Shown: positions 11,198 to 36,888 of the stretch, piece by piece
Layout of the letters: each line of letters starts with the position of its first letter
How positions within the stretch are numbered: position 1 is the first letter of the stretch
NCBI GenBank assembly: GCA_016178585.1
Contig: JACOTA010000027.1
Span: forward strand, 1 to 43,350
Length of the DNA stretch: 43,350 nt
Direction of reading: 5' to 3'
From: Nitrospirota bacterium
GTDB taxonomy: Bacteria > Nitrospirota > Nitrospiria > JACQBW01
Made by a program: the position numbers and the translations under genes
The notes under the pieces: generated by a model
Seen by the model: the letters and a program-made list of their open reading frames with translations, nothing else
The model's database searches: none
What the model was told of the DNA's origin: nothing

Positions 11198-11315
11198 CCA
11201 GCCCTTGTATATTCCAACCTGCTCCGGCTCCGAAGTTTACCGCCTATTTTTACGGATCTTAAGGAAGGGTGACCAAACTTCGAAGAGGTCGCTGTCTGGA
11301 ACATACAAAGGCTGG
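11198..11315 (+). repeat. Family B palindrome, copy B1 (cobS-cbiP)
   Basis: The copy-specific arms are CCAGCCCTTGTATATTCCA on the left and TGGAACATACAAAGGCTGG on the right, which are complementary with few mismatches. They enclose the family core, which begins CTGCTCCGGCTCCGAAGTTT and ends AAACTTCGAAGAGGTCGCTG. In the core CGAAGTTT pairs with AAACTTCG. The orientation is defined as forward. No gene is visible in the remaining intergenic bases. Confidence 0.85.
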
Positions 11316-11362
11316 TACACGGGATGTTCTAAAAGAGATGGTGAAGAAAGAATAATTTTAAA

Positions 11363-12886
11363 ATGCCTTTGAAGAAAACAAAGACTTTGATGATTCAGGG
11401 GACCGGATCAAACGTTGGAAAGAGCATCTTAACGACCGCCCTTTGCCGTATTTTTTTGGAAGACGGTTTTTCCGTGGCTCCATTTAAAGTCCAGAATATG
11501 GCCCTCAATGCCTATGTGACGTCGGACGGTTTTGAGATGAGCCGTGCCCAGGCCCTTCAGGCCCAGGCGTGCCGGATTGAACCGGACGTTCGGATGAATC
11601 CTGTTTTAATCAAGCCGACAACGGTTTCAGGGTCTCAGGTGGTTGTCATGGGAAAAGCCAGGGAGATCTTAAGCTGGGCGGACTATACGGCTCTTAAACC
11701 ACAGTTATGGCCGACCATTCGTTCGGCTTATCAGTCATTGTCATTTGAGCATGATGTCATTGTGCTGGAAGGGGCCGGAAGCCCGGCTGAAATTAATTTA
11801 ATGGAAAACGATATTGTGAATATGTCGGCGGCGGAGATGGCCGATGCGCCGGTTCTGCTGGCGGGCGATATTGACGCGGGAGGCGTTTTTGCGAGCTTTG
11901 TCGGGACCTTATCCCTTCTCCCGCCCCATCAAGCCTCCCGGATAAAAGGATTCATTTTAAATAAATTCAGGGGAGACCGTTTAATTTTAGAACCGGGGCT
12001 GGCAAAGATTCAGCAAATTACCGGGAAGCCTGTTCTGGGAGTCGTTCCCTATCTGGAAGAACTCCTCCTTCCTGAGGAAGATTCCGTGTCGTTTAAAACC
12101 GGCAAAACCCCGCTTCTAAAAAAACAACATCTTGTAAACGGTCAACCTGTTTGCCGGATTGCCATTCTCGATCTTCCCAAGATCAGTAATTTTACCGATT
12201 TTGATCCTTTTTATGCAGAGCCGGATGTCGAAATTCAGGTGGTGCGGCGGGGAGACTCACTTAAGCTAAATGGGATTTTACCCGATGTCGTGATCATTCC
12301 GGGCTCTAAAAACGTGGCCCAGGATTTGGCTTATCTAAAGGAGACTCACCTGGATCGGGAGGTGACTTTATTTGCTTCAAAGGGGGGCCTGGTCGTTGGC
12401 CTGTGTGGAGGCCTTCAAATGCTGGGAGAAACTTTGGACGATCCTTTTGGCGTGGAGAATACGCCTTCATCGGTTTCCGGGCTGGGCTTTTTAAAAATCG
12501 GGACTATTCTGGAAAAAGAAAAAACATTGAAAAAAGGGGCCTTTTTGCATGTCGTCAGCGGAATCCGGGCGAGCGGGTTTGAGATGCATCATGGCCGGAC
12601 AACGGTCTGCCGCGAAAGGCCCTGTTTTCTTCAGGAAGGCATGACTCAGGGAAATCCCCTTGGCTGGTCCAATGAAACCGGACGAATATGGGGGACTTAT
12701 CTCCACGGTGTTTTTGATTCCGATGAGTTCCGGCGGTGGTTCATTGATCAGATTCGGGAAAACAAGGGTCTCCCCCCGCTGAAAAAGATACAGGCAAACT
12801 ATGACACGGAAAAGGTCATCCAGCGCCTGGCCAATGAGGTCAGAAAAGGGGTGGATATGGATGCGATCTATCGGATGATGCAATGA
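11363..12886 (+). CDS. cbiP: Cobyric acid synthase
   Basis: A 507-residue CobQ/CbiP. It amidates the b, d, e and g side chains of adenosylcobyrinate a,c-diamide using glutamine and ATP. The N-terminal dethiobiotin-synthetase-like domain has the P-loop GTGSNVGKS (residues about 12-20). The C-terminal class I glutamine amidotransferase domain has the nucleophile C348 in GLCGGLQMLGE and H448 in TYLHGVFD. Length and motif order are normal. It starts a second overlapping gene block; its stop overlaps the cbiB start by 4 bases. Confidence 0.95.
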   Translation: MPLKKTKTLMIQGTGSNVGKSILTTALCRIFLEDGFSVAPFKVQNMALNAYVTSDGFEMSRAQALQAQACRIEPDVRMNPVLIKPTTVSGSQVVVMGKAREILSWADYTALKPQLWPTIRSAYQSLSFEHDVIVLEGAGSPAEINLMENDIVNMSAAEMADAPVLLAGDIDAGGVFASFVGTLSLLPPHQASRIKGFILNKFRGDRLILEPGLAKIQQITGKPVLGVVPYLEELLLPEEDSVSFKTGKTPLLKKQHLVNGQPVCRIAILDLPKISNFTDFDPFYAEPDVEIQVVRRGDSLKLNGILPDVVIIPGSKNVAQDLAYLKETHLDREVTLFASKGGLVVGLCGGLQMLGETLDDPFGVENTPSSVSGLGFLKIGTILEKEKTLKKGAFLHVVSGIRASGFEMHHGRTTVCRERPCFLQEGMTQGNPLGWSNETGRIWGTYLHGVFDSDEFRRWFIDQIRENKGLPPLKKIQANYDTEKVIQRLANEVRKGVDMDAIYRMMQ

Positions 12887-13833
12887 AGGTCGTTTATTGG
12901 GCAGGGTTAGCGCTACTTCTTGATCTTTGTCTTGGAGATCCCCGATGGCTCCCCCATCCTGTGAGAGGGTTGGGGGTTTTAATTGCCTTCAGCGAAAGAG
13001 GGTTAAGGGCGGTTTTCCCGAAGCATGAAAAGCTTGCCGGTATTTTACTGGCGGGAGCGATAGGATTAGGAACCTATGGATTTTGTTCAGGGTTGGTGAT
13101 ATTCTCCCAAAAGCTTGCCCCTTTTTGGCGTGAGAGTGTTCAGGTGATTTTGATTTATTTTTCCCTTGCGCCAAGAGATCTCGGCGCCCATGGATTGCGG
13201 GTTTTCAGACATTTAAAAGAAAAAAAACTTGAAATGGCGAAATCCAAAGTCTCAATGATGGTAGGCCGGGATGTGGCTCCCTTAGATGAAAAAGGGGTCA
13301 TCCGCGCGGCCGTTGAAAGTATCGCTGAGAACACGGTAGACGGGGTTGTGGCGCCGCTTTTTTTTGCCCTCCTGGGCGGCGGCCCTGCCGCAATGGCTTA
13401 TCGGGCCGTGAACACGCTCGATTCGATGGTGGGATACCGGGAGCCCCCTTATACCCGTTTGGGGTGGGCTTCTGCCCGGCTGGACGACCTTTTGAATTTT
13501 TTGCCCGCTCGATTGACCGCCGGAGTGATGCCTCTGGCAGGGGTTTTATTTGGAGGATCTGTATTGAGGGGCTACCGTGTTTTATTGAGAGACGGGAGAA
13601 AACATGAAAGCCCCAACGCAGGCCTTCCTGAAGCGGCTATGGCCGGGTTGCTCGGCGTCCAGTTAAGAGGCCCTCACTATTACAGCGGAATTTGTGATCA
13701 TGCTCCTTTCATCGGATTTGCGGAGCGGGGAATCAAAAATCAGGACATCCTGAAGGCGATCGGCGTGATGGCGGTATCTACCCTTTTTATTTTTTTATTG
13801 CTTGCTTCATTTCGTTGGCTGGCCTTTAATTAA
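12883..13833 (+). CDS. cbiB: Adenosylcobinamide-phosphate synthase
   Basis: A 316-residue polytopic membrane protein of the CbiB/CobD family. It attaches aminopropanol phosphate to adenosylcobyric acid. Motifs: LDLCLGDPRWLPHPVRGLG near the start (residues about 13-31), VGRDVAPLDEKGVIRAAVES (about 127-146), ENTVDGVVAPLFF, and NTLDSMVGYR. ATGA overlap with cbiP indicates coupling. Its aminopropanol phosphate substrate comes from the CobD and PduX activities encoded at the head of the operon. Confidence 0.95.
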   Translation: MKVVYWAGLALLLDLCLGDPRWLPHPVRGLGVLIAFSERGLRAVFPKHEKLAGILLAGAIGLGTYGFCSGLVIFSQKLAPFWRESVQVILIYFSLAPRDLGAHGLRVFRHLKEKKLEMAKSKVSMMVGRDVAPLDEKGVIRAAVESIAENTVDGVVAPLFFALLGGGPAAMAYRAVNTLDSMVGYREPPYTRLGWASARLDDLLNFLPARLTAGVMPLAGVLFGGSVLRGYRVLLRDGRKHESPNAGLPEAAMAGLLGVQLRGPHYYSGICDHAPFIGFAERGIKNQDILKAIGVMAVSTLFIFLLLASFRWLAFN

Positions 13834-13839
13834 AAAAAG

Positions 13840-14520
13840 ATGATGAAACAGAAAATTGACCATTCTTTTCCGGATTTATTAAAACAGGGTGTTTATGACG
13901 CGATTTATAAACGGCGTGATATTCGGCGTTTTTTGTCCGATCCTCTCCCGGAAGAAGTCCTCATGCGCATTTTGGACGCTGGACATCAGGCAGGTTCCGT
14001 CGGGTTAATGCAGCCGTGGAATTTTCTCATCATCCAGGATGCCGGTTTTAAAACTCAAGTGAAAAACAGCTTTCTGGAATGCAACCGTGAGGCCTCAAAG
14101 GTTTATTCTGGAGAAAAATCCGCCTTATACCAGGGATTAAAATTGGAGGGGATTGAGGAATCCCCTGTTAATATCGGCGTGACCTGTGATTTTTCAAGGA
14201 AAGGGCCCTTTGTGTTGGGTACTCAGACGATGCCGCAGACCGCTCTGTTTTCCACCTGCTGCGCGATTCAAAATCTTTGGCTCGCAGCCAGAGCCGAAGG
14301 GGTGGGTATGGGTTGGGTCAGTATTTTAAACCCCGGGAAAGTCAAAACCTGTTTGGGAATCCCGGACCCCGTTGAACTCGTTGCTTACCTCTGCCTGGGA
14401 TATGTGGAATCGTTTCCTGAAAAGCCTGTGCTGGAAACCGCGGGTTGGGAAAAGAAACTGCCTCTGGAGGATTTTATTTTCTGGAACCGGTGGGGTGAGA
14501 AAGAAAGGCTGGATAAATGA
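13840..14520 (+). CDS. bluB: 5,6-dimethylbenzimidazole synthase (BluB-like)
   Basis: A 226-residue flavoprotein of the nitroreductase fold. The N-terminal block YKRRDIRRFLSDPLPEEVL and the AGHQAGSVGLMQPWNF segment (residues about 20-64) match BluB, as do GVGMGWVSILNP and the C-terminal PVLETAGW. BluB fragments FMNH2 with O2 to give the lower ligand base of B12. The place between cbiB and cbiX supports this over a generic nitroreductase. A member of the same superfamily with another role in corrinoid metabolism cannot be fully excluded. It starts 6 bases after cbiB and overlaps cbiX by 4 bases. Confidence 0.85.
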   Translation: MMKQKIDHSFPDLLKQGVYDAIYKRRDIRRFLSDPLPEEVLMRILDAGHQAGSVGLMQPWNFLIIQDAGFKTQVKNSFLECNREASKVYSGEKSALYQGLKLEGIEESPVNIGVTCDFSRKGPFVLGTQTMPQTALFSTCCAIQNLWLAARAEGVGMGWVSILNPGKVKTCLGIPDPVELVAYLCLGYVESFPEKPVLETAGWEKKLPLEDFIFWNRWGEKERLDK

Positions 14521-15365
14521 AGAAAGATAGATGGCTCCTTATCGGACATGGAAGCCGCGATCAGGAAAGCAATGAGGAATTTTTAACCCTGGTCAGCGAC
14601 CTCAGAAAAAAAAAGGCCGGTCAGCCCATTGATGCCGCCTTTGTGGAATTGGCGGAACCCAACATGAAAACGGTTCTTGAAAGTTACGGCGACCCCGTCC
14701 CTAAAAGGGTTTGGGTTTTGCCTCTGCTTTTCTTTGCCGCGGGCCATTCGAAGACAGAGATTCCGGAGGTCATTCAGGAAGTGAGAGCCAGGTTCCCCCA
14801 TGTGGAATTTCATTACGGGGCGCCTTTGGGAATTCATCCCATCCTCCTGGACATTGTCCATAAAAGGGTTTTACAGGTCGAAAAAAAGGTATCCCCTTTA
14901 CCGAAAGAGAAAACGGCAATTTTACTGATCGGCCGGGGAAGTTCGGATCCGGACGCGAATGGCGATATGCATAAAGTCTCCCGTCTTTATTGGGAGCAGC
15001 ATCGTAACGGATGGGTGGAAACCTGTTTTATAGGGGTTACCCGGCCGGACCTTCCCGGAGGGATCAAACGGTGCGTTCAGTTGGGCGCCGAACGGATTAT
15101 CGCGATCCCTTATTTTATCTTTACGGGGGTCTTGATTAAACGGATTCAGGGAATCGTCAACGACCATCGGGAAACAAATCCCGGAGTGGAAATTTTGATG
15201 GGAGACTACCTGGGGAGGGATCCTTCCCTCATGACTCTTGTGGAAGAACGGTTTGAGGCGATTCAAAAAGGACCGGTTTTGATGAATTGCGATGTTTGTA
15301 AATTTCAGTTCCCCCGCCTGGCTCCGGAATCTCAAGGGGGGCACGGTCACGGCCATCACCATTAA
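14517..15365 (+). CDS. cbiX: Sirohydrochlorin cobaltochelatase, long form
   Basis: A 282-residue two-domain chelatase that inserts cobalt into sirohydrochlorin, the first committed step of the cobalt-early pathway. Domain 1 opens with LLIGHGSRDQ (residues about 7-16); domain 2 opens with LLIGRGSSDP (about 139-148), where Arg replaces the usual His, as expected for the second half of the long form. The tail has MNCDVC (C258, C261), matching the MxCxxC motif reported for an iron-sulfur centre in long CbiX proteins, followed by a His-rich end (GGHGHGHHH) suited to metal binding. Confidence 0.92.
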   Translation: MKKDRWLLIGHGSRDQESNEEFLTLVSDLRKKKAGQPIDAAFVELAEPNMKTVLESYGDPVPKRVWVLPLLFFAAGHSKTEIPEVIQEVRARFPHVEFHYGAPLGIHPILLDIVHKRVLQVEKKVSPLPKEKTAILLIGRGSSDPDANGDMHKVSRLYWEQHRNGWVETCFIGVTRPDLPGGIKRCVQLGAERIIAIPYFIFTGVLIKRIQGIVNDHRETNPGVEILMGDYLGRDPSLMTLVEERFEAIQKGPVLMNCDVCKFQFPRLAPESQGGHGHGHHH

Positions 15366-15380
15366 TTAAGGGACAGAATC

Positions 15381-16010: not shown

Positions 16011-16052
16011 TTCATATTTATTAACGCTAAACATAAAAGGAGAAAGGTTCAA

Positions 16053-16247
16053 ATGGAGCAGACTCAAACAATGGATCAGGTTCAAGAGGTTGATGTACGA
16101 AAGGGGGCCCGGAGAGGCTTTTTAGGAATGGTCTTATTTCTGGCCCTTCTCCAGGGGATTATTTTATTGGGTCCGCAATTGATGGGGAGCTGGGCCCACG
16201 ATAATTTTCATAGTTATCGTCACAGCATTGGAATGGCATGTCATTAA
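16053..16247 (+). CDS. cbtB: CbtB-like predicted cobalt transport protein
   Basis: A 64-residue protein with a single membrane segment (residues about 20-42) and a short His-rich tail with the pattern H-D-x-x-H-x-x-x-H-x-x-G-x-x-C-H. This matches CbtB, a small subunit proposed to act in cobalt uptake and often controlled with B12 genes. AAAGGAG lies 9-16 bases upstream of the ATG. It overlaps the next membrane gene by 10 bases, the position in which CbtA is usually found. The transport role is a family-level prediction. Confidence 0.82.
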   Translation: MEQTQTMDQVQEVDVRKGARRGFLGMVLFLALLQGIILLGPQLMGSWAHDNFHSYRHSIGMACH

Positions 16248-16675: not shown

Positions 16676-17769
16676 AAACCGAGAAAAAAAAGGGAGACCG
16701 GACGGGATTTTCAACCGGCGCTTGTGCGGCCGCCGCCGCCAGAGGAGCTCTCCTGGCCTTTCTCCATCGGAAGAAAGTGGAGCAGGTCGAAATTACGCTC
16801 CCCCTGGGAGAGAAGGTTTTTTTTCAAATTTCGGAATGTTTGATTGAATCAGGTTATGCCCGTTGCGGTGTCATAAAAGACGCGGGAGATGATCCCGATG
16901 TCACCCATGGGGCTTTAATCCAATGCATGGTTTCATTTATCCCTGAACCCGGAGTTGTCAGATTAAAAGCCGGAGAGGGAGTGGGAACGGTGACTCAACC
17001 CGGGTTGGGACTTGAGGTTGGAGCGCCCGATATTACCCGGGTTCCCCGAAAAATGATTACGCGGGAGATTGAAGACGCCGCCGGCCCTGTTTTGAAGGAA
17101 AAAGGGGTTCTGGCTGTTGTTTCAGTCCCCGGAGGCGAAGCCCTGGCGAAAAAAACTGAACTCCCCCGGTTAGGCGTCGTCGGAGGGGTTGGCATTCTGG
17201 GAACAACCGGGATCGTCCGGCCTTATTCAACCTCTGCGTTTAGGGCGGGGATTAGCCTTGCGGTCGGCTCGGCCCGGCAGAGAGGCTATTCTCATCTGGT
17301 GATTACCACCGGCGGGATGAGTGAGAAGTTTGCTAAAAAATGGATTCAGCTCCCCGAAGGCGCTTTTATTCAGATGGGGGATTTTGTCGGCTTTACCTTG
17401 CAGGAATGCGTTAAAAAGAAAATTGAAAGAGTCACCATTTCAGGGATGATTGGAAAACTTTCCAAAATGGCGATGGGAAAAATGATGACTCACGCGGCAG
17501 GGTCGGAAGTCGATACCGGTTTTCTTGCTCAATTAGCGGAATCGTCGGGCGCATCCCCGGAGGCGGGTGAACAGATTAAAAAAGCAAATACGGCCAGGCA
17601 TGTCGCCGAGATGGTTCAGTCTTATGGTCTGACTTCATTTTTCGATCAGTTGAGTCTTAAGGTTTGTGAAGCCGCGAGCCGGCATATTAAGGGAGCCTTA
17701 TCGATAGAATGTTTGATGACTGATTTTGAAGGGAATGTCATCGGCAAAGCGTTAAGAAACAAAGAATAA
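16672..17769 (+). CDS. cbiD: Cobalt-precorrin-5B C1-methyltransferase
   Basis: A 365-residue CbiD that methylates C1 of the cobalt corrin ring. The N-terminal GDRTGFSTGACAAAAARGAL (residues about 8-27) is the family hallmark, followed by DAGDDPDVTHG (about 71-81), the GEGVGTVTQPGL segment, GGVGILGTTGIVRPYS, and GMIGKLSKMAMGKMMTHAAG. The length is normal. It overlaps the membrane protein upstream by 4 bases. Two family B palindromes follow it before cbiET. Confidence 0.95.
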   Translation: MKTEKKKGDRTGFSTGACAAAAARGALLAFLHRKKVEQVEITLPLGEKVFFQISECLIESGYARCGVIKDAGDDPDVTHGALIQCMVSFIPEPGVVRLKAGEGVGTVTQPGLGLEVGAPDITRVPRKMITREIEDAAGPVLKEKGVLAVVSVPGGEALAKKTELPRLGVVGGVGILGTTGIVRPYSTSAFRAGISLAVGSARQRGYSHLVITTGGMSEKFAKKWIQLPEGAFIQMGDFVGFTLQECVKKKIERVTISGMIGKLSKMAMGKMMTHAAGSEVDTGFLAQLAESSGASPEAGEQIKKANTARHVAEMVQSYGLTSFFDQLSLKVCEAASRHIKGALSIECLMTDFEGNVIGKALRNKE

Positions 17770-17785
17770 CCTTGGCGGGTTTCCC

Positions 17786-17912
17786 GGCACCACCGATGAC
17801 CCTTCCTCTCTGCTCATGCTCCGAAGTTTATCCTCATCTCTGGATTTTTACATTTTGGTGGGATAAACAAAACTTCGAAGAGGTCGCTGAGAGGAAGGGT
17901 CACCGGCGTGCC
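17786..17912 (+). repeat. Family B palindrome, copy B2 (after cbiD)
   Basis: The arms are GGCACCACCGATGACCCTTC / CTCTC on the left and GAGAG / GAAGGGTCACCGGCGTGCC on the right. They are complementary over more than 20 bases and unrelated to the arms of the other copies. The core is CTGCTCATGCTCCGAAGTTT to AAACTTCGAAGAGGTCGCTG, with a diverged centre. Forward orientation. B3 follows 65 bases later in the opposite orientation. Confidence 0.85.
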
Positions 17913-17977
17913 CTGGGCTGCGGTATTAAAAAAGGTGATGAATGATTAAGAAAGTAATGAATTAGAATACGGGTCGC

Positions 17978-18100
17978 GCATATGCCGGTATGTGTCCCGA
18001 ACAGCGACCTCTTCGAAGTTTGGTTACCTTTCCACAAGTCTGTTAAAATAGGCGGTAAACTTCGGAGCGTGAGCAGAGAGGGATTCATGCCGGCATATGC
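17978..18100 (-). repeat. Family B palindrome, copy B3 (before cbiET)
   Basis: The arms are GCATATGCCGGTATGTGTCC on the left and GGATTCATGCCGGCATATGC on the right, again complementary and locus-specific. The core is in reverse orientation: CAGCGACCTCTTCGAAGTTT to AAACTTCGGAGCGTGAGCAG. B2 and B3 together occupy most of the 382-base cbiD-cbiET gap. I see nothing else in that gap. Confidence 0.85.
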
Positions 18101-18151
18101 TTTAACCTAATACGGTGATCAGGTTCTAAGAAAGTTATTAAAGGGAGTAGA

Positions 18152-21484: not shown

Positions 21485-21622
21485 CCCAAGAACAGCGATA
21501 GACTTCGCACCCACTTATTAATCATGTCATTGCGAGCACCGAAGGGTGCGTGGCAATCTTATCGTAAAGTCTTGAGATTGCTTCACTTTGTTCGCAATGA
21601 CAGCTTTCTAACTCTGTTCTTG
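21485..21622 (+). repeat. Family C MITE-like element, copy C1
   Basis: This 138-bp element appears identical, as a reverse complement, to 39799-39936. Its ends are inverted repeats (CAAGAACAG and CTGTTCTTG, 9 bp), and it contains an internal inverted pair GTCATTGCGAG / CGCAATGAC. No open frame of use is inside. The CATTGCGAG / GCAATCT motifs are of a kind seen in dispersed repeats of several bacterial phyla. It ends 10 bases before the ribosome-binding site of the next gene. Confidence 0.88.
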
Positions 21623-24509: not shown

Positions 24510-27500
24510 ATGGCTCAAAAGCGTAAAATAGTCCATATTACCTTCTTAATTGGCCTATTGACGATTTCAGTTATTTTTACAATATCCAAACTATTTTCTG
24601 CCACTCCTTCATTAACCATCGTTTCCGTCGGTAACGAACCCCGTGGAGGGGCCTATAACCCCTCGACCGGCAAAGGAGTGGAGTCAAACCACAACAGCAA
24701 TACCATAACCATTATCAACGCGACCAACTTTACCGTAACCAATGTCACGGTCGGTTCTCATCCCTACGGCGTCGCTATCAATAACAGCACAAACAAAGCC
24801 TATATCGCCAACGAACAATCCGATACGGTCAGTGTCATTACCCTCTCCAATAATACGGTATCAGCAACAATTTCTGTTGGAAACAACCCGAGAGGGATTG
24901 CTGTCAACGCGACTACCGATGTGGGAGTCGTTGCCAACTCCAAAGCGGATACGATCTCTATCTTAAATCTTGCCAATAATAGTGTCACGGCGACCGTCGC
25001 TGTAGGAACCGATCCGGAAGGGGTGGTGATTAATCCCTCGAATAATAGCGCTTATGTTACCAATTACGGCTCCAATACGGTATCGGTCATCAATCTGGTC
25101 AATAATACCGTATCCGCTACGATTCCAGTCGGAACCGGACCATTAGGGATTGATATCAATACCACGATTTCACGAATTATGGTCGCCAACCACTTTTCCA
25201 ACACCGTGAGCGTGATAAATCCGTCTACAAACGCCGTTTCAGCCACAATCAATGTCGGTCTGGCTCCATTTGGAGTAGCTATTAACTCCAGCACCGGCCT
25301 GGCCTATGTATCCAATGAATATTCCGACTCGGTCTCGGTAATTAATATGTCAACTAATGCGATCACCGCGACTTATGCGGCAGGACAAAATCCAGAAGGA
25401 ATCGCGGTCGTCCCTAGCCTTAGCCTTCTCTTTGTCGTCAACGACAAGGGAAATCAGGTTTATATCATCAATCTGGCCAATCCTCCAACAACTTCTCCCT
25501 CTCCTACTGGAACCGATCCCGAAGGAGTGGTCGTCGATCCGTCAACCAACACGGCAATCACCACGAATTCCAAATCGAATAATCTTTCGGTCATTAACCT
25601 GACAACCTCGACCCTGATCACAACGATACCGGTAGGCAAAGGTCCTCAGGATGTCGCGTTGAACCCAAACACCAACAAATTAGTAACAGCCAACTCCAGA
25701 GATAATACCGCGACGATTATCGACTATCCGACCCGAACGGTCTTGGCAACCGTCTCTGTTGGCAACAGACCCAAATCGGTAGCCATCGATCCGGGATTAA
25801 ACCTCGCCGCGGTTGCCAATGAACTGGATGGCACCTTAAGCCTGATTAATCTGGGGAGCTATTCGGTGACGGCCACCATTTCCACGGGATCTCATCCTAC
25901 GGATATCGCGATCAATCCGACCACCCATATCGCCGTGGTGGCAAACAAAAAAACCGACCTGGTCACGATCATCAACCTTCAAACGCAAACAACGGTAACA
26001 ACCCTAGCGGTAGGAAAAGATCCGGTCTCGGTATCGATCAACCCGAATACCAATAGTGCCGTGGTTGCCAATCAGAAATCTAACAGCGTCTCGATCATCA
26101 ACTTAAACACCAACACCGTCACAACGACGATTTCGGGAATTGTAAACCCGATCGGATCAGACATTAACCCATCGACCAATATCGCGGTAATCATTAGCCA
26201 TGAAGCGACGACCCTGACTTTAATTGATCTCTCAACCAACACGAAAAGCTCAACCTTAAGCGGCGCCGGACCCGATCCGGAAGATGTCGCGATCAACCCG
26301 AATACCAATATCGCGGTCGTCACCAATGAAACCGGCCTGGGCGTCAGCCTGATTCAACTCCCTAATTCGGTCCCGGTCTTAACCACCCTCTCTCCCAATT
26401 CCACGACGGCAGGAGGGCCGGGTTTCACGCTCACCTTAAACGGGAGCAAGTTCGTTACCACATCGACTCTGACCTTTAGTAACTTAACAATCACCCCCCA
26501 GTTTATCAGCACCACCCAGCTGTCAGCCACGATTCCAGCGTCGGCGCTTACCACAGCCGGATCGGCAACGGTCAAGGTAACCAACCCGGCGCCGGGCGGG
26601 GGAACGTCCAACAGTTTAATCTTTACAATCATTCAGGCTTTGCCGTCGATCGGTTCGATCACCCCCAGTTCAGCGACTGCCGGGAGCTCAAGCTTCCAAA
26701 TGATTATAACCGGAAGCAATTTCGCAACGACTTCCACAATCAATTTCAGCGGAACGACTCTAACAGCGGTATTTGTCTCCACCAGTCAATTAAACGTCAC
26801 CATTCCGGCTTCTTCCATAGTTGCCGCCGGAATTTATCCGGTTAAAGTGGTCAACCCCGGAGGATTGAATTCCAACAGCGTAAATTTTACGGTGAATAAT
26901 CCAGGTCCAACGATTACGGGATTTACACCGACCAGTGGAACGGTGGGAACAGTCGTCACCATTACCGGATCAAATTTTGCCACGGTTGTATCCAATGACA
27001 AAGTCTATTTTAATGGAACCCCGGCAATTATTACTTCGGGTAATGCGACTCAAATCACCACCTCGGTTCCTCTGGGAACCACCACTGGCCCGATCTTTCT
27101 AACAACACCGTTGGGGAGTACAACATCCGCAACATCGTTTACGATACAACCGCGAAAAGATTACCAAATGATCGTCAATCCTGGTTCAGCCAGCAGTGTC
27201 CAGGGAACAAGCGTCTCCTATATTGTAAGTCTGCAAAGCATCGGTGCCGAAGCATTTTCAGAACCGGTAGGGTTATCTATCTCTAATCTGCCGGCAGGGA
27301 TGACAGCCGTCTTTTCTCCAACGTCTATTTCAATCAGTCAGCCGTCTGTGCTGACCTTAACGTCATCGGCCAGTATCCCGGCGGGCACCTTGACGCTCCT
27401 TGTGCAAGGAACCGCTATCGTGGACGGAAATATCCTGAGCCACACCGCTTCGCTGAGTCTGACCACCCTTGCGTCAGGAGGCACTTCTTTGTCTGGACAG

Positions 27501-30500
27501 ATTCTAGCCACCCGGGACGGCAGGCCGCTAGGAAACGTCAGACTGCGCCTTGGAACCTCGACTTACTATACAGACCCAGCCGGAAACTTCCTGATTCAAA
27601 ATCCTCCGATCGGCACTCAGGTGATGTTGATTGATGGGGATACGGCTAACACCGCGACCTCTGCTTATCCTTCAGCGCTGCCGGTTGAATTTACCGTGAC
27701 TTCAGGCCAGGCCAACACCTTACCGTATCCAATCTACCTTCATGAAATCAGCCAAAACTTTATTCCGATTAATCCGGCAGTCGATACCATTGTTACGGAC
27801 GTAAATGTGCCTGATTTTCAAATGAGGATCCCGGCGGGGGTCAATATCATTGGCTGGGATGGACAGGTCAACACGAAAGTCTCAGTGACCCCCGTGCCGA
27901 TTGACCGGTTACCGATTAAACTGATCCCTGCCGGTATTTACACCCGAACGGTCTATATGTTCTCGTTTGGAAAGCCGGGAGGCGGTCTACCCAGCCAACC
28001 GATTCCCGTGACCTATCCCAACGATTTGCACGGAAACCCCGGAGACCGGATGAATCTCTGGTACTATGACGAATCGGCCAACCCCGATCCCAATTCCCAT
28101 CAATGGAAAATTTACGGACAGGGCACTGTGACACCCGATGGAAGGCAGATTGTTCCCGATCCTGGCGTCGGCATGCCCAAATTCTGCTGTGGCGCAACGT
28201 TTGTTTCTACCTTAGGCAGCGCCTCCAACGTCGGCCCTAATCCCAGTCCACAGGATGGAAAACAACCCAAGGGGGATCCGGTTGATCCATCCACCGGAAA
28301 TTTTACGTTAACTCATACGGATCTTTCGCTTCTAGGTCCGATTCCAATTCTCGCCACCCGGATTCAGCGGAGCCTTGGCGGCCTCTATTATTATGGGACG
28401 TTTGGAATTAACTCGAGCTTCTCGTATGATCTCTTTATGGTGGTTCAGAGTCAGTCTCTTTTGTTGACGTATCCTGATGGAGAGCAATATCGCTTTGCCT
28501 TACAGACCGATGGGACTTATATCAATGGGAATTATCCCTTCTTACGAGGTGCAGTAGCGAGAATTAACTCAGATGGCACCCGATCCGTCCGGTTTAAAGA
28601 TGGAACAACCTATACGTTTGGCGGCTCATACGGCCATCTCATTGAAATACAGGAAAGAAATCATAACGTGGTCAGCATTCATTTAAATACCTACGGATAC
28701 GCAGATCAGATCACAGATAACCTGGGCCACTATCTTCTCATTCAGTATAATACTGGGATCTCATGTTTTTGCATTGATTTAAACGGCAATCCTGTGAACT
28801 TTATTTCGTCGATTGCTGATCATAGCGGCAGGGTTGTCAACTATACATACGCTGCCAACCGCTTAACTACCGTCACAGATCCCAATGGAGGAACGACACA
28901 ATTTACTTACGATAGCGGTTCACGAATTTCCACCATAACCGACGCAAGAGGGATTACCTATCTCACCAATGTGTATGATGGGAATGACCGGGTCATTCGC
29001 CAGACCCAGGCCGATGGAGGGATTTTTCAGTTTTCTTATGATCTTACCGGAAGCGTAGTGGTTCAAACCCACGTCACCGATCCGGATGGAAACACATCGG
29101 TTTATCGGTTTAACAACATGCAGTATGTTTCGCAAAGTACAGATCCTCTAGGACAATCCACGCAAATAAACCGTGCGTTTGGGACCAATCTTCTGTCGTC
29201 CACAACAGATCCATTAGGAAGTGTCACAAGCTATACTTATGATTCAAACGGGAATATCGGGTCCTTGACCGATGCCCTGGGCAATGTGACGCAATACAGT
29301 TACGAACCGGTCTTTAATAAGCCGACTCAAATCACGGATGCTCTTGGTCAAGTTCGGACAATGGGGTATGATTCGAATGGAAATATGACCTCTGTAACCG
29401 ATTCGATGGGGAATACCACCACAATGACCTATAATTCCTTCGGCAAGCTGTTGACTGTGACGGATGCGTTAGGCCAGGTGACGACCTATGGCTACGACGC
29501 AGATCTTAATCTCACGTCCATTACGGATCCTCTAGGAAACAAGACTCAGCGGTTCTATGACCCCCTCTCCCGGCTGACGACTATCATTGATCCCAGAGGA
29601 ATGGGCACAGGGTTTGCGTATGATCCTTTAAACCGAGTTACCCAGATCATTGATTCAGCGGCTGGCAAGACCCAGTTTACCTACGATCCGAACGGGAATC
29701 TTTTAACGGTAACCGATGCCAAGAACCAGACGACCACGTACACCTATGATAATATGGATCGGTTGGCTACCCGAACGGATCCACTGCTGAGGTCAGAGAG
29801 TTATCTTTACGATGGAAATGGGAACTTGACGAAATTTACCGATCGAAAAGGGCAGATAACCACCTTTGGTTATGACAGCCGGAACCGGCGAAATCAATCG
29901 TCTTATGCGGATGGGTCCGTTACTAATTTTTCGTATGATTCCGTGGGAAACATTCAATCCATCACCGATACCGTGTCAAACACCCTTACTTTTGGTTACG
30001 ACACACTAAACCGGTTAATTCAGGAAACAACGTCAATGGGAGGATCGATTTCTTATTTTTACGATGTTTTAGGAAGAAGAATGTCGATGACCGTCGATGG
30101 GCAGTCACCTGTAGGATATAGCTACGATTCGAATAGCCGACTAGTTTCGGTCGCGCAAGGAACTCAAACGGTGTCGATGGCTTATGATGTGCTTGGCCGA
30201 AGAACGGGTCTTGCGTATCCTAACGGAACAAATACCACTTACAATTATGATCCAGCCAGCCGGTTAACTAATATTTTGCATCAAGCAGGGGCCACGACAA
30301 TAGAAAACTTAACATATAATTATGATCCAGCCGGGAATCGCGTCTCATTTGGGAGAAATGGCACACAGGCCCCTTTACCTGCGCCAGTTCAGGCAGCTTA
30401 CGATGCGGCCAACGAGCAGATTCAGTTCAACTCTGGCACAGCTAATCTTTCTTATGATTCAAATGGAAATTTGATTTCCCAATCCGATGCCAATGGAACC

Positions 30501-31421
30501 ACTAACTACACTTGGGATTCCAGGAACCGGCTCATTGGCGTTAATGGGCCAAGTGCCTCCGCAAGCTTTGTTTATGATGCATTAGGAAGAAGAATCAGTA
30601 AAATAATAAATGGAGTCCGTAAGGATTACCAATATGACGGAAATGACATTATCGCAGAAGTCGGTGGCGGCGCGGTGAGTGCAAATTATTTAAGATCGTT
30701 GAAAGTTGATGAACCGTTTATCAGGCAGTCATCGGGCAATGAGTTTTATCATGCCGATGCGTTGGGAAGTATCATGGCGTTAACGGATGCCTCGGGAGTA
30801 ATTTCTACATCTTACGCTTACGAGCCGTTTGGGAAAACAACCCCTACTGGGGCCTCATCAAACCCCTTTCAATTTACCGGCAGAGAAAATGACGGCACCG
30901 GACTTTACTACTACCGTGCTCGTTATTACAGCCCCTCACTCCAAAGATTCATCTCCGAAGATCCGATAGGATTCAGAGGCGGAATTAATAAATATTCTTA
31001 CGTTCTGAATAACCCTCTGAGATTTTACGATCCTTTCGGATTAGATAAAAAGCCTCCGGTCTATGTTCAAGTCTGTGATTTATCCGGTTGTGGCCCTCCA
31101 TTGCCGGTACAAGATCCAAATCTAATCCAATTGCCCACGAATAACCCTAACGAATTAACATTTGGCGCCAGCGTGTGTACGGGTCCAATTTGTACCGATC
31201 AAACAGGCCAAGCTTATAGTGTAGAAAATGGAGAACAGTTCGGAGCATCTTTAGATATACGCTATGGTCCCCCTGCGGAAGGACCATTAACTGAGCAAGG
31301 TTTTCCTGTGAGAGATGAGATCTTGTTGGGAGGTGGTTATGACAGTGGAGGAGGTATTAATCTCCATATTGGTCCGGGACTTGGAACTCCATTTCCTAGG
31401 ACAGTGCCAATTACACATTAA
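24510..31421 (+). CDS. Giant RHS/YD-repeat protein with YVTN propeller region
   Basis: A 2303-residue exported protein. Order: signal or anchor (residues 8-32); about 14 YVTN-type blade repeats of about 42 residues (35-615; e.g. GVAINNSTNKAYIANEQSDT), enough for two seven-bladed propellers; three IPT/TIG domains (about 618-705, 710-798, 800-885); an Ig-like domain (887-990); a carboxypeptidase-regulatory-like domain (990-1060); a linker ending CCGATF; a DUF6531-type start (GDPVDPSTGNFTLTHTDL, about 1255); many YD repeats (about 1390-2100); and the RHS core GLYYYRARYYSPSLQRFISE to NPLRFYDPFGL (about 2126-2180). The last 124 residues are a variable C-terminal tip that I do not recognise. RHS proteins often deliver such tips as toxins; that role is inferred here. 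Confidence 0.88.
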   Translation: MAQKRKIVHITFLIGLLTISVIFTISKLFSATPSLTIVSVGNEPRGGAYNPSTGKGVESNHNSNTITIINATNFTVTNVTVGSHPYGVAINNSTNKAYIANEQSDTVSVITLSNNTVSATISVGNNPRGIAVNATTDVGVVANSKADTISILNLANNSVTATVAVGTDPEGVVINPSNNSAYVTNYGSNTVSVINLVNNTVSATIPVGTGPLGIDINTTISRIMVANHFSNTVSVINPSTNAVSATINVGLAPFGVAINSSTGLAYVSNEYSDSVSVINMSTNAITATYAAGQNPEGIAVVPSLSLLFVVNDKGNQVYIINLANPPTTSPSPTGTDPEGVVVDPSTNTAITTNSKSNNLSVINLTTSTLITTIPVGKGPQDVALNPNTNKLVTANSRDNTATIIDYPTRTVLATVSVGNRPKSVAIDPGLNLAAVANELDGTLSLINLGSYSVTATISTGSHPTDIAINPTTHIAVVANKKTDLVTIINLQTQTTVTTLAVGKDPVSVSINPNTNSAVVANQKSNSVSIINLNTNTVTTTISGIVNPIGSDINPSTNIAVIISHEATTLTLIDLSTNTKSSTLSGAGPDPEDVAINPNTNIAVVTNETGLGVSLIQLPNSVPVLTTLSPNSTTAGGPGFTLTLNGSKFVTTSTLTFSNLTITPQFISTTQLSATIPASALTTAGSATVKVTNPAPGGGTSNSLIFTIIQALPSIGSITPSSATAGSSSFQMIITGSNFATTSTINFSGTTLTAVFVSTSQLNVTIPASSIVAAGIYPVKVVNPGGLNSNSVNFTVNNPGPTITGFTPTSGTVGTVVTITGSNFATVVSNDKVYFNGTPAIITSGNATQITTSVPLGTTTGPIFLTTPLGSTTSATSFTIQPRKDYQMIVNPGSASSVQGTSVSYIVSLQSIGAEAFSEPVGLSISNLPAGMTAVFSPTSISISQPSVLTLTSSASIPAGTLTLLVQGTAIVDGNILSHTASLSLTTLASGGTSLSGQILATRDGRPLGNVRLRLGTSTYYTDPAGNFLIQNPPIGTQVMLIDGDTANTATSAYPSALPVEFTVTSGQANTLPYPIYLHEISQNFIPINPAVDTIVTDVNVPDFQMRIPAGVNIIGWDGQVNTKVSVTPVPIDRLPIKLIPAGIYTRTVYMFSFGKPGGGLPSQPIPVTYPNDLHGNPGDRMNLWYYDESANPDPNSHQWKIYGQGTVTPDGRQIVPDPGVGMPKFCCGATFVSTLGSASNVGPNPSPQDGKQPKGDPVDPSTGNFTLTHTDLSLLGPIPILATRIQRSLGGLYYYGTFGINSSFSYDLFMVVQSQSLLLTYPDGEQYRFALQTDGTYINGNYPFLRGAVARINSDGTRSVRFKDGTTYTFGGSYGHLIEIQERNHNVVSIHLNTYGYADQITDNLGHYLLIQYNTGISCFCIDLNGNPVNFISSIADHSGRVVNYTYAANRLTTVTDPNGGTTQFTYDSGSRISTITDARGITYLTNVYDGNDRVIRQTQADGGIFQFSYDLTGSVVVQTHVTDPDGNTSVYRFNNMQYVSQSTDPLGQSTQINRAFGTNLLSSTTDPLGSVTSYTYDSNGNIGSLTDALGNVTQYSYEPVFNKPTQITDALGQVRTMGYDSNGNMTSVTDSMGNTTTMTYNSFGKLLTVTDALGQVTTYGYDADLNLTSITDPLGNKTQRFYDPLSRLTTIIDPRGMGTGFAYDPLNRVTQIIDSAAGKTQFTYDPNGNLLTVTDAKNQTTTYTYDNMDRLATRTDPLLRSESYLYDGNGNLTKFTDRKGQITTFGYDSRNRRNQSSYADGSVTNFSYDSVGNIQSITDTVSNTLTFGYDTLNRLIQETTSMGGSISYFYDVLGRRMSMTVDGQSPVGYSYDSNSRLVSVAQGTQTVSMAYDVLGRRTGLAYPNGTNTTYNYDPASRLTNILHQAGATTIENLTYNYDPAGNRVSFGRNGTQAPLPAPVQAAYDAANEQIQFNSGTANLSYDSNGNLISQSDANGTTNYTWDSRNRLIGVNGPSASASFVYDALGRRISKIINGVRKDYQYDGNDIIAEVGGGAVSANYLRSLKVDEPFIRQSSGNEFYHADALGSIMALTDASGVISTSYAYEPFGKTTPTGASSNPFQFTGRENDGTGLYYYRARYYSPSLQRFISEDPIGFRGGINKYSYVLNNPLRFYDPFGLDKKPPVYVQVCDLSGCGPPLPVQDPNLIQLPTNNPNELTFGASVCTGPICTDQTGQAYSVENGEQFGASLDIRYGPPAEGPLTEQGFPVRDEILLGGGYDSGGGINLHIGPGLGTPFPRTVPITH

Positions 31422-31502
31422 CCATAGTATGACATTCATAATACTCTAACTTAAACTGATAACAAGAATACAGTCCACTCAAGGTAATAGAGGTTTGATC
31501 AG

Positions 31503-32739: not shown

Positions 32740-32754
32740 AGGACATAGCAAGAA

Positions 32755-33609
32755 TTGAAATCATTTCGTAAGAAATTGTCTGACATAATCATTTATGTTT
32801 TTCTTCTGAATGTAGTTTTTATTTCTTATGCTTCAAATAGAGTTAAAACCGATATTGAGAAATGGGAATTAATTGGAAACATTCGAAGCGTTGAAATTAG
32901 AGAAGGACTTAATATGGTCTCGCAGATTTTCTTCAACAAAGATGGAAAACTAATTGATCAAGAACTTTCAATAAAAACACCTAATGAACAGACATGGATA
33001 AAAACTCATACAAAATATACTTATAATTCTTCAGGAAAGTTGTCAGCAAAATTTTCTTACATTGATAATGGTCTGATGGACAAAAAAACACTTTATTCCT
33101 ACAGTAAAAATGGAAAGGAAACAGAAGAAACAACGTATGATTCGAAGGAAGTTTTTTTATTCAAATATGTTTATATATTTAATCCCCAAGGAGATGAAAT
33201 TGAGGGGAAATTTTACAAAAAATCCGATGCTGAAGAGCGTAAGTGGGTTAAATCATATGATGGTAAGGGAAATTTGACTTCTTTAATTTGGTTTAAAACA
33301 GATGGAAGCATTGATTATAAGGTTTTGTACGAATACGATGAAAATAATTATCAAAGTAAGAACTTAATTTACAAGGCCGATGGCTCTCTTGATGAAAGAA
33401 GAGAATATAAGCATGATGGCAAGGGTAATGTCATTGAAGAGATCACCTATAAGTCCGACAATTCAATCCAAGAAAAGAAGGTCTATAAGTACATGTTTGA
33501 CTCAATTGGAAACTGGACCAATAAAATAACGTCAATATTTTCTAATCATTCCGGAAAACTTTCCCCTGATTCCTCTTCGACAACATTTCGGACTATTACT
33601 TATTATTAA
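32755..33609 (+). CDS. Secreted YD/MORN-like repeat protein, possible immunity
   Basis: A 284-residue protein with a signal peptide (residues about 8-26, cleavage near SYA). The mature part consists of roughly seven degenerate repeats of about 22 residues with a Y-x-Y-x-x-x-G-x-x-x-x-E pattern (KYTYNSSGKLSAKFSYIDNG, YEYDENNYQSKNLIYKADGS, YKHDGKGNVIEEITYKSDNS), like YD/MORN-type sheets. The start is TTG at 32755, with AAAGGA about 12 bases upstream. It follows the orphan RHS tip by 15 bases, so a periplasmic immunity role is possible. The gene is AT-rich. Its function is unknown. Confidence 0.55.
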   Translation: MKSFRKKLSDIIIYVFLLNVVFISYASNRVKTDIEKWELIGNIRSVEIREGLNMVSQIFFNKDGKLIDQELSIKTPNEQTWIKTHTKYTYNSSGKLSAKFSYIDNGLMDKKTLYSYSKNGKETEETTYDSKEVFLFKYVYIFNPQGDEIEGKFYKKSDAEERKWVKSYDGKGNLTSLIWFKTDGSIDYKVLYEYDENNYQSKNLIYKADGSLDERREYKHDGKGNVIEEITYKSDNSIQEKKVYKYMFDSIGNWTNKITSIFSNHSGKLSPDSSSTTFRTITYY

Positions 33610-33643
33610 ATCTTAAATAGAATTAGAATCTCCAACTTTATCT

Positions 33644-34023
33644 TTGAAGGACTATATTAAGGTAACTTTAGAGAAAATATACAAAGCATTAAGTCGTTGT
33701 GCTATCGAACTAGATAAATGTGCCGACCTCATTCGTGATAGCCAATTAGAACCAGTGCGGGAGCACATACATCGAATTGGGAGTGCATTAGAAAATATAA
33801 ATGAAATTCGAATGGAAATAATTAAACTGGAACCACTCCTGTTACTAATTATAACAGAATTTACGGAAACCTAATTATTGAAGTTGAAAATTTATGTAAA
33901 ATCAACAATCCTCGTCAAGCAATCCAACAGCTAAAGGATTTTATTAAAATTCGACCAGGAAAAAATTTTGAGAAAATGGCGAGAAAAGAACTTGCTTTAA
34001 TTAAATCACGATTTGGAATCTGA
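33644..34023 (+). pseudogene. Small helical protein gene, apparently frameshifted
   Basis: From TTG 33644 a 76-residue helical product is read (ITLEKIYKALSRC-like start, then HIHRIGSALENINEIRMEII). Its last residues (LLLLIITEFTET) look out of frame. A second frame continues without stop to TGA at 34021-34023 and reads NYNRIYGNLIIEVENLCK, then AIQQLKDFIKIRPG and ELALIKSRFGI, which looks like genuine protein. The two halves probably form one gene of about 125 residues broken by a frameshift near 33825-33845. It could be a decayed immunity gene. Confidence 0.5.
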
Positions 34024-34190
34024 GAAAATGACGGCACCGGGCTTTGTCTATGATCCTTATAAACCGGGTAACACAAATTATCGATGCGGCAGCGGGGACG
34101 ACCCAGTTTACCTATGATCCCAACAGAAATCTTTTGTTGGTAACTGATGCCAAAAATCAAACCACGATATATACCTATGACAAGAGGAAG
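34020..34190 (+). pseudogene. Chimeric RHS fragment
   Basis: The bases TGAGAAAATGACGGCACCGG match the RHS core end of the large gene (near 30884). They are fused directly to a stretch matching its YD repeats near 29612-29750 (GTATGATCCTTTAAACC-like, then CCCAGTTTACCTA, then GATGCCAAAAATCAAACCAC). The order is reversed relative to the intact gene, so at least one deletion or recombination event made it. Reading frames of the two parts differ and no start is present. It marks past RHS cassette exchange at this site. Confidence 0.75.
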
Positions 34191-34201
34191 AGGCAGTGGA
34201 A

Positions 34202-34726
34202 ATGTTTAAAAAACTTTCAAAACTATTCGAATGGAAAATTATAGCGCAGTTGTTTGTTAACAATTTTTTTAACTTTATGGTATACGATTTTATGGCTGGA
34301 ATCGTTATAGGTTTTATTATGGTAATTTTTCTATCTCCGTTCATCTGGGGATTATCTCGATTTTTTTCGTTAATGGGTGCGATGGGCGAGCGGTGGAATC
34401 ATCAAGGTACCATGGCAGTTTGTTTATTCATTGCGTGTGTTGTTGTTTTGTTTTTTGTTTCTGAAAAAAATTCCCGCAAAAATATTCTTAATCATATTTG
34501 TATAATTTTTTTCAAAACTTGCTGTAAGAAGCTGGTCTCTGTTATACGATTAGGATTTATTTTATTTGGATCTGCGTTGAGCATGTTATGTTATTTTGCA
34601 ACGAGTCCCCTTCATGTTGTACTAATTTTCTTAAATTCAATCCAATTTTTATTTATCCTTATTGCGATTTGGACGATGACCTATTTTTTAAATTATTTTG
34701 TGATGGATCGAGAGAGGATACTCTAA
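34202..34726 (+). CDS. Four-TM membrane protein in RHS island, unknown
   Basis: A 174-residue, AT-rich gene with about four membrane segments (residues about 25-50, 70-90, 110-130, 138-162). ATG 34202 is preferred over GTG 34196 because AGGAAGAGG lies 8 bases upstream. It directly follows the RHS debris, so it may be an immunity gene left by a lost toxin cassette. No family is recognised. Confidence 0.55.
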   Translation: MFKKLSKLFEWKIIAQLFVNNFFNFMVYDFMAGIVIGFIMVIFLSPFIWGLSRFFSLMGAMGERWNHQGTMAVCLFIACVVVLFFVSEKNSRKNILNHICIIFFKTCCKKLVSVIRLGFILFGSALSMLCYFATSPLHVVLIFLNSIQFLFILIAIWTMTYFLNYFVMDRERIL

Positions 34727-34921
34727 GATCTATTGTGATAATCGGACCCCCAATCCTTAGACTTTTAGATGCAATTCGGAGAGCGTTTCAATGTGGGCTG
34801 TCTGCGGAAACAAAGGGGGCGATGCGGTCGATTTTAATACGGTGTCAGATGCCTCTCTTCTGACAGAACAGTTTTTAATCTGATTGAATTGAAGGTTGTG
34901 CTTGAATAAGGAGATGAAGAA
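34727..34921. other. Right boundary of the RHS island
   Basis: No complete gene is seen. A 30-codon open stretch at 34791-34883 (ATGTGGGCTGTCTGCGGAAA onward, ending ACAGAACAGTTTTTAATCTG) has the G+C-rich codon use of the cobalamin genes rather than that of the island. It may be the 3' remnant of an older gene next to cbiH. AAGGAG just before 34922 serves cbiH. Confidence 0.4.
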
Positions 34922-35779
34922 ATGTCGCAAAAAGGGGAGCTTTACTTAATTGGTTTTGGGCCCGGGAGTCATGACCATCTGACCTTTAGAGCCAAGAAGG
35001 CGATTGAACAGGCCAACGTTGTTGTAGGCTACCGAACGTACATTGAGCTGGTCGCTGACCTTTTAGAAGGTAAAGAAATCATTTCTACCGGAATGACAGA
35101 AGAGATTGACCGCGCGAGGTCGGCGGTGGAACGGGCTCAAAAAGGGGACAGGGTGGCTCTGGTTTCCAGCGGCGATGTCGGAATTTACGGTATGGCGGGT
35201 CTTGTTTTTGAAATCTTGAGCGACATGAAATGGACCCCTGAAGGTTCTGATTTTTCGGTGGAAGTTATTCCGGGGATTACGGCGTTGTCCGCCGTTTCTT
35301 CCCTTGTCGGGGCCAGTTTGACGCATGATTTTGTCGCGGTTAGTTTAAGCGATCTTTTAACCCCCTGGCCGGTGATTGAGAAAAGGTTGCATGCGGCGGG
35401 ACAGGGAGATTTCGTTGTGGCGCTTTATAATCCGCAAAGTAAACGGCGGAACTGGCAGCTCCAAAAGGCTCAGGATGTGTTATTGACCTATAAAAAACCC
35501 GACACGCCTGTTGCCGTCGTAAAGAGCGCCTATCGGGAAGGACAGAGGGTGGTTTTGACGACGCTTGATCAGATGGCGCAGGCTGAAGTGGGGATGTTGA
35601 CGACGATCCTCATTGGAAATGATTCGACCTTCCGTTATCTTGATTTTTTAATTACGCCAAGAGGGTATTCAGGGAAATACGATCTTGATTCGGGAGAAAT
35701 TTTGCATAAAGGAATTGACAGGCCGGGCCTATCGTTAAACAGGCCTCCTGATTTTAATGTTTTAAAACAACAAAACTAA
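34922..35779 (+). CDS. cbiH: Cobalt-factor III C17-methyltransferase
   Basis: A 285-residue tetrapyrrole methylase that methylates C17 and drives ring contraction. Motifs: LYLIGFGPGSHDHLTFRAK (residues about 7-25), VVVGYRTYIEL, ALVSSGDVGIYGMAGLVFE (about 78-96), VIPGITALSAVSSLVGA, and ALYNPQSKRRNWQL (about 167-180), all typical of CbiH/CobJ. It is the first cobalamin gene after the RHS island and must rely on readthrough or a promoter within the island's right edge; I see no strong promoter. Confidence 0.94.
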   Translation: MSQKGELYLIGFGPGSHDHLTFRAKKAIEQANVVVGYRTYIELVADLLEGKEIISTGMTEEIDRARSAVERAQKGDRVALVSSGDVGIYGMAGLVFEILSDMKWTPEGSDFSVEVIPGITALSAVSSLVGASLTHDFVAVSLSDLLTPWPVIEKRLHAAGQGDFVVALYNPQSKRRNWQLQKAQDVLLTYKKPDTPVAVVKSAYREGQRVVLTTLDQMAQAEVGMLTTILIGNDSTFRYLDFLITPRGYSGKYDLDSGEILHKGIDRPGLSLNRPPDFNVLKQQN

Positions 35780-35797
35780 CGGTTTGTTTAACATCCC

Positions 35798-35905
35798 AGG
35801 CATGTAACCTTCTCTGCTTCGGCTCCGAAGTTTACCACCTATTTTTACGGACATTAAGGAAGGGTGACCAAACTTCGAAGAAGTCGCTGTGAAGGTCACA
35901 TGCCT
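35798..35905 (+). repeat. Family B palindrome, copy B4 (cbiH-cbiF)
   Basis: The arms AGGCATGTAACCTT and AAGGTCACATGCCT are complementary with one mismatch and are specific to this locus. The core TCTGCTTCGGCTCCGAAGTT to AAACTTCGAAGAAGTCGCTG is nearly identical to that of B1, including the centre CCTATTTTTACGGA. Forward orientation. Confidence 0.88.
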
Positions 35906-35945
35906 GTGACGTCCGTTGAACAGCGAGTGGATTTAAATTACAAAG

Positions 35946-36722
35946 ATGAAAAAAACAATGGGTACAGATAAAATATATATCGTGGGAGCGGGGCCCGGTG
36001 ATCCTGATTTATTGACTGTAAAAGGGATGCGTCTCCTTCAGGAAGCCGATGTGATTATTCACGCGGGCTCTTTGGTGAATCCGATTCTCCTTAAATTTGC
36101 CCGGCCTGATGCGGTTCTCTATGATAGCGCCGGAATGGTTCTGGAAGAAATCGTTCAAGTCATGCTCGACTCGGTTCGCGCGGGAAAAAAAACAGTTCGT
36201 CTGGCAAGCGGCGACCCCTGTATTTTCGGAGCGGTTGGCGAAATGACCGAGCCGATCATTCAAGCGGGTTTAGCGTATGAAATCGTTCCGGGTGTCAGTT
36301 CGTTTTTGGCCGGCGCCGCGGCGCTGAAACGGGAGTTGACGGTACCGGAAGTGGCGCAGACGGTTATTTTAACCCGCTGTGAAGGGAGGACTCCGATGCC
36401 GGAGTTGGAACGACTCAAAGAACTCGGTCGTCATCGGACCACGCTGATTATTTTTTTAAGCGTTCACCTGGCAAGCAAAGTTCAAGCCGACCTGTTGACC
36501 GCTTATCCCCCGGAGACCCCTGTTGCCATTGTTTATCGGGCCAGTTGGGCCGATGAAAAAATGATAAGAGGAACTCTCGAAAACCTACAAAACCTTGTCA
36601 AAGAAAATAAAATTACCAAGACCGCTTTAATTTATATCGGCAACTTTCTGGAATCTGAAGGAACCCGGTCTAAACTTTATGATGCTTCATTCACACATGG
36701 GTACAGGAAAGCTTCTCAATGA
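35946..36722 (+). CDS. cbiF: Cobalt-precorrin-4 C11-methyltransferase
   Basis: A 258-residue tetrapyrrole methylase of the CbiF/CobM type. Motifs: IYIVGAGPGDPDLLTVKGM (residues about 8-26), ADVIIHAGSLVNP (about 32-44), VRLASGDPCIFGAVGEM (about 80-96), EIVPGVSSFLAGAAAL and FLSVHLASKV. It is flanked on both sides by family B palindromes in opposite orientations. ATG 35946 has a weak ribosome-binding site; ATG 35958 is an alternative that trims four residues. Confidence 0.94.
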   Translation: MKKTMGTDKIYIVGAGPGDPDLLTVKGMRLLQEADVIIHAGSLVNPILLKFARPDAVLYDSAGMVLEEIVQVMLDSVRAGKKTVRLASGDPCIFGAVGEMTEPIIQAGLAYEIVPGVSSFLAGAAALKRELTVPEVAQTVILTRCEGRTPMPELERLKELGRHRTTLIIFLSVHLASKVQADLLTAYPPETPVAIVYRASWADEKMIRGTLENLQNLVKENKITKTALIYIGNFLESEGTRSKLYDASFTHGYRKASQ

Positions 36723-36770
36723 AAAGTTTCCAAGTTATGTTCAGTCTTCTTTAGTTGAGAATACCGTTGA

Positions 36771-36888
36771 CATGGCAGAGTGTGACCTGAACAGCGACCT
36801 CTTCGAAGTTTGTTTACCCTACCTTAATGTCTTACAAAATAGATGGTAAACTTCGGAGCGCGAGCAGAGAAGGTCACACTCTGCCATG
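36771..36888 (-). repeat. Family B palindrome, copy B5 (cbiF-cobC)
   Basis: The arms are a perfect 18-bp inverted repeat, CATGGCAGAGTGTGACCT and AGGTCACACTCTGCCATG. The core is in reverse orientation: CAGCGACCTCTTCGAAGTTT to AAACTTCGGAGCGCGAGCAG. This is the clearest example of locus-specific but self-complementary arms. No gene lies in the 200-base gap. Confidence 0.9.

Follow-up and report, generated by a model that had tools for sequence, protein, structure and literature searches.

Five hairpins in the gaps of a cobalamin operon

The window, that is, the whole stretch of 43,350 nucleotides that was analyzed, contains a cobalamin operon with a cobalamin riboswitch upstream of it (positions 6150–6419, 90.5 bits) and five hairpins, B1 to B5, in the gaps between its genes. 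The hairpins had been predicted at these places from the letters of the sequence, and all five were recovered by a covariance model, with E values of 8.4e-25 or better for B1, B3, B4, and B5 and of 4.8e-22 for B2. All are of the type I defined below. B1 (11198–11315, minus strand, 115.7 bits) occupies the gap between a CobS gene and a CobQ-like gene and is antisense to the operon, as are B2 (17789–17910, minus strand, 104.2 bits), which follows a CbiD gene, and B4 (35793–35910, minus strand, 118.1 bits), which lies between two genes assigned by Pfam to the tetrapyrrole methylases. B3 (17981–18097, plus strand, 117.5 bits), located before a precorrin-methylase gene in the same gap as B2 and diverging from it, and B5 (36771–36888, plus strand, 125.6 bits), flanked by genes for a tetrapyrrole methylase and a histidine phosphatase, are both sense. 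The strand is defined here by the core (CUUCG...CGGAG), which runs along the operon in B3 and B5 and opposite to it in B1, B2, and B4. The gaps are short, with each hairpin lying 14–49 nt past a stop codon and 35–55 nt ahead of the next start, and, the one histidine phosphatase gene aside, all of the neighboring genes are cobalamin genes. On the core-defined strand, the folds are far more stable than those of dinucleotide shuffles, with z scores of −6.3, −8.2, −5.7, −7.3, and −7.7 for B1 to B5, respectively (range −5.7 to −8.2), and the minimum free energy prefers this strand in B1–B4, though not in B5.

Other repeats were also observed in the window. A 138-nt repeat (CCAAGAACAGAGTTAGAAAGC...) is present at 21485–21622 and 39799–39936 as two inverted copies with 100% identity, and the same repeat interrupts hairpins of subfamily alpha (see below) at loci L142 and L149. 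Three copies of a GC-rich 89-nt repeat, 85–93% identical, are located at 9259–9347, 38776–38864, and 42925–43013, with many relatives in the related genomes G001 and G002, and a stretch related to it overlaps the riboswitch region at 6301–6341. A 2303-aa open reading frame at 24510–31421 is rich in internal repeats, which have a spacing of 126 bp in its first part; one of its stretches has a 77% copy at 34060–34183.

Distribution of the hairpin family

The original prediction had proposed a covariance-model search of the host genome and its relatives, and models built first from 19 and then from 48 copies were used for this purpose. Counted by model search, there are ~37 full copies in the host genome (G000), 8 in G001, and 22 in G002, about 65 in all, with the three carrier genomes representing three genera of one Nitrospirota family. 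When 270 genomes from the class and 396 from the phylum were scanned with stricter filters, no further carriers were found; in other phyla, exact-pattern matches were isolated and chance-like, and one pattern match was on a viral contig. Neighboring hairpins less than 2 kb apart were observed to diverge (−,+) in 9 of 12 cases, with 3 expected (17789–18097 and 35793–36888 in the window; L101–L104 and L107 in G002).

The statement that all copies lie between cobalamin genes holds for the five in the window, but no tie to such genes follows from it, since these are 5 of ~37 full copies genome-wide. In Rfam, the cobalamin riboswitch was the sole match in the window, with no hairpin family found; searches at three further loci with E up to 1 likewise returned no hairpin family, apart from one weak chance match to a snoRNA. 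A literature search found no paper on such a hairpin family in Nitrospirota, and further searches of the literature yielded analogies alone. This is a new, covariation-supported, RNA-like hairpin family in Nitrospirota, unmatched in the Rfam release searched.

Architecture of core and arms

The core described in the original prediction, in which CGAAGTTT pairs with AAACTTCG and which ends in AGAGGTCGCTG, is real, except that the end reads AGAAGTCGCTG in B4. Two core types with one architecture were recognized, namely type I, CAGCGACCTCTTCGAAG...CTTCGGAGCNNGAGCAG, and type II, GGAGACTCGGCGAA...TTCGGCGCCGTCGGAGA. Outside the core, the perfect 18-bp arm pair attributed to B5 was confirmed as 18 perfect pairs, and the arms of 20 copies were found to pair at one offset in 379 of 560 positions by Watson–Crick rules (68%), versus 110–174 of 560 (about 25%) at other offsets. 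The arms, first described as unrelated yet complementary, are thus complementary in one fixed register, but their inner half does have a consensus (GGTGTG..CCTGAAC / GGAGAGAAGG..AT.CC). Alignment columns 2–8 and 16 hold almost no sequence information and are still paired in 78–100% of copies; the consensus is wholly absent only in the outermost pairs of the stem. An intrinsic terminator, or an origin from one, was considered and rejected, with no T-run following the arms when both strands of the copies were read directly.

Compensatory change and strand bias

In the 48-copy alignment, all 18 outer-stem pairs showed two-sided compensatory changes in some copies. Over the whole structure, 413 two-sided change cells were counted versus 129 in shuffles, with none of 500 shuffles as high, and the covariation score was 0.617, compared with 0.195 in shuffled alignments and at most 0.153 with the partners slid. 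The mismatches are also biased toward one strand: on the strand of the core, there are 85 G·U versus 25 A·C pairs, and the bias is the same in copies sense and antisense to the neighboring genes. Because some G·U pairs of the inner arm are inherited from the consensus and hence not independent, the fair test is given by the consensus-free columns, in which the G·U to A·C ratio is 32:15 (p = 0.019). An earlier count in 20 copies had given 34 A·C versus 4 G·T on the opposite strand; the bias is weaker in the larger alignment and still significant.

Neutral decay and correction of a palindrome do not explain the G·U bias, and we therefore infer selection on one single-stranded form. One such form of the hairpin seems, from the alignment, to be under selection, and this form is probably RNA rather than single-stranded DNA. 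Selection for a long stem in the mRNA, one of the options raised originally, is in this respect supported as far as the stem itself is concerned, given the compensatory changes and the G·U bias, but the stem is not selected as part of the sense operon mRNA, because B1, B2, and B4 are antisense and the bias is independent of gene direction.

Near-identical cores on unrelated arms

In several pairs of copies, the cores are 90–100% identical while the arms are at background similarity. Against an arm background of 0.43, the core and arm identities are 1.00 and 0.35 for the two L104 copies, 0.93 and 0.31 for B1 and B4, and 0.92 and 0.26 for B2 and L006. Replacement of a core is seen directly in one copy, L058:2831, which has the arms and outer flanks of L058:1501 and L082 together with the apex and core of the B2 group. 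The best explanation for near-identical cores on unrelated arms is that copies have exchanged their cores. Gene conversion among dispersed copies would run out at the arms, where the copies cease to be homologous, and would thereby account for the sharp boundary between core and arm.

Arm homology is clear at one of the six sites shared between genomes (L058:2831/L102:2933), suggestive at two (L014/L054 and L006/L106), and absent at the other three. At L014/L054, the same site is filled in two genera with the arms changed on both sides, which suggests that arms diverge while remaining paired. The core may also turn round between its arms, as the comparisons of L006/L106, L010/L056, and L058:2831/L102:2933 would indicate; this is suggestive only, as clear arm homology is seen in a single pair of the three, with weak homology in another and none in the remaining one. 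Shared sites may alternatively reflect independent insertion into the same gap.

Mobility of the hairpins

About 16 copies in G000 have common arms (AAGTGCCTGG/CCAGGCACTT) and are referred to as subfamily alpha. Full-length alpha units are 175–178 bp long, with terminal inverted repeats, GTAAYCSTTCAGT ends, and no open reading frame, and exact 8-bp target duplications flank four alpha copies in G000 and two in G001, six in all. The arms of alpha travel with the rest of the element, which moves as a whole (176 bp). Movement of the whole unit as one fixed element, which the original prediction had named as the outcome speaking against it, was accordingly found for the alpha copies. For the near-identical cores on unrelated arms, the original view that a fixed, transposing sequence does not account for the pattern is right. 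Apex-deleted units of the alpha type are present at L147 (90 bp), L140, and L141; in L147, the base of the stem has short ATGG repeats on either side of the deletion. The host genome was also searched for alpha ends, and none of three lone ends inspected was beside an identified transposase.

For single copies as a class, target duplications did not exceed those in shuffled flanks, and terminal inverted repeats are unrecognizable in single copies, including those in the window. Probable target repeats were nevertheless identified around B2 and B3: TTAAGAAA to the left of B2 (17752–17759), an 8-bp match with the repeats lying 35 and 29 nt from the B2 arms; TTAAGAAAGT (17946–17955), common to the right of B2 and the left of B3; and TAAGAAAGT, also written CTAAGAAAGT, to the right of B3 (18127–18135). 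These repeats hold three of the four TAAGAAA occurrences in the 43 kb. The probable full units between them, of 186 bp for B2 (17760–17945, minus strand) and 171 bp for B3 (17956–18126, plus strand), are near the 175–178 bp of alpha in length. The arrangement suggests two insertions at one target, with the repeat triplicated, a reading that stays suggestive because, for single copies taken together, such repeats are no more frequent than chance.

Empty sites were found by comparison with G002: where it carries both L104 hairpins and the three L103 hairpins, the corresponding gaps of G000 and G001 have no hairpin and gave no model match. For L104:2494, the neighboring genes directly abut in the two relatives, without arms, and there was therefore no prior hairpin in which to land. 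The operon carrying B1–B5 is largely missing from the relatives, and the empty-site comparison rests on these G002 sites.

Comparison with known systems

ERIC and NEMIS/Correia repeats resemble the Nitrospirota hairpins in being imperfect palindromes of 100–200 bp that occur in transcribed gaps in both orientations and are probably non-autonomous transposons. These families have one consensus over the whole repeat, ends included, whereas the outer stem of the Nitrospirota hairpins lacks one, and their cores have a history distinct from that of the arms; the comparison is one of design only. ERIC copies in Yersiniae have been reported to change how their neighboring genes are expressed, through the RNA hairpins into which they fold (PMC2267715).

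Among the features of miniature inverted-repeat transposable elements (MITEs), terminal inverted repeats (alpha), target duplication (six alpha copies, and probably B2/B3), and presence or absence at the L104 and L103 sites were all found. Alpha is like the MITEs of DDE transposons in its terminal inverted repeats, 8-bp target duplications, length of 176 bp, and lack of an open reading frame, but, unlike these, it bears a conserved strand-specific hairpin common to subfamilies with unrelated ends. Integron attC sites are likewise imperfect palindromes in which a single strand is active and the letters of the stem vary; the attC sites, however, conserve the base of the stem and vary its center, whereas the Nitrospirota hairpins conserve the center and vary the base. 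RNA hairpins shaped by template switching show multi-base compensatory change in stems and loop inversion, as described for single RNA genes (PMC8794818). In contrast, the Nitrospirota family is mobile and multi-copy, with a strand bias not predicted by template switching alone.

Origin and possible function

The reading preferred here, to which we assign a probability of about two in three, is that the hairpins are old, family-restricted, MITE-like elements carrying a strand-specific hairpin, with drifting stems and with cores homogenized by conversion. The elements would be small non-autonomous DNA transposons of ~170–190 bp with 8-bp target duplications, containing a hairpin of ~120 nt and inserting as whole units, arms included, as the alpha copies and empty sites show. 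After insertion, pairing alone would be selected in the outer stem, such that its letters drift and become locus-specific, while the core sequence would be held by selection and by gene conversion ending at the arms. The locus-built look of the hairpins would thus mostly reflect an old hairpin kept in shape by paired changes. Action as RNA is likely on this account, and the folded RNA might affect the processing or stability of the transcripts into which it has been inserted, as reported for ERIC, or might bind a protein.

The hairpin might instead be active as single-stranded DNA, recognized by a strand-specific transposase or recombinase, with the stem kept for movement and not as RNA. This is how one hairpin strand is recognized in IS200/IS605 ends and integron attC sites, and G·T is also tolerated in DNA hairpins. 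The G·U bias would fit a single-stranded DNA role too; the bias follows the strand of the element rather than gene direction, copies occur in both orientations, and the element showed no sign of a promoter. However, the terminal inverted repeats and 8-bp duplications of alpha are as expected of double-stranded DNA transposition of the DDE type, and stems are kept in the long-settled copies at L014/L054, where movement gives the site no benefit. We regard this account as rather unlikely, though worth keeping in mind.

That template switching in replication both makes and keeps the complementarity, by copying one arm inversely onto the other while the fold itself is free of selection, is less credible still. 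This mechanism has been reported to act in RNA stems and in loop inversion (PMC8794818), cores look turned round at three shared sites, and apex deletions occur, but it gives no reason for G·U over A·C on the core-defined strand whatever the gene direction, and it leaves the conserved core and inner arm unexplained. Template switching, which was among the options raised originally, may thus contribute to keeping stems paired or to turning cores without, by itself, accounting for the strand bias.

It is quite improbable that the core alone is mobile and that each insertion or repair event would build new complementary arms around a strand-specific structured RNA or single-stranded DNA. Insertion of a mobile core into the loops of existing hairpins, such as terminators, is very improbable: it was originally considered and would suit arms that differ by locus around some near-identical cores, but it is contradicted by the abutting genes at the empty L104:2494 site, by the missing T-run after the arms, and by alpha taking its own arms along. 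Finally, a regulatory element particular to cobalamin operons, as the position of the five copies in cobalamin gene gaps might suggest, can practically be dismissed in view of ~32 more copies elsewhere in the genome in either orientation to genes.

Returning to the preferred reading of old MITE-like elements, the hairpins of this Nitrospirota family would consist of separable pieces, in that the unit moves whole, the stems drift under a pairing constraint on one strand, and the cores are exchanged between copies. Overall, the family may offer a compact natural data set on how RNA stems stay paired, whether by selection, by template switching, or by both.
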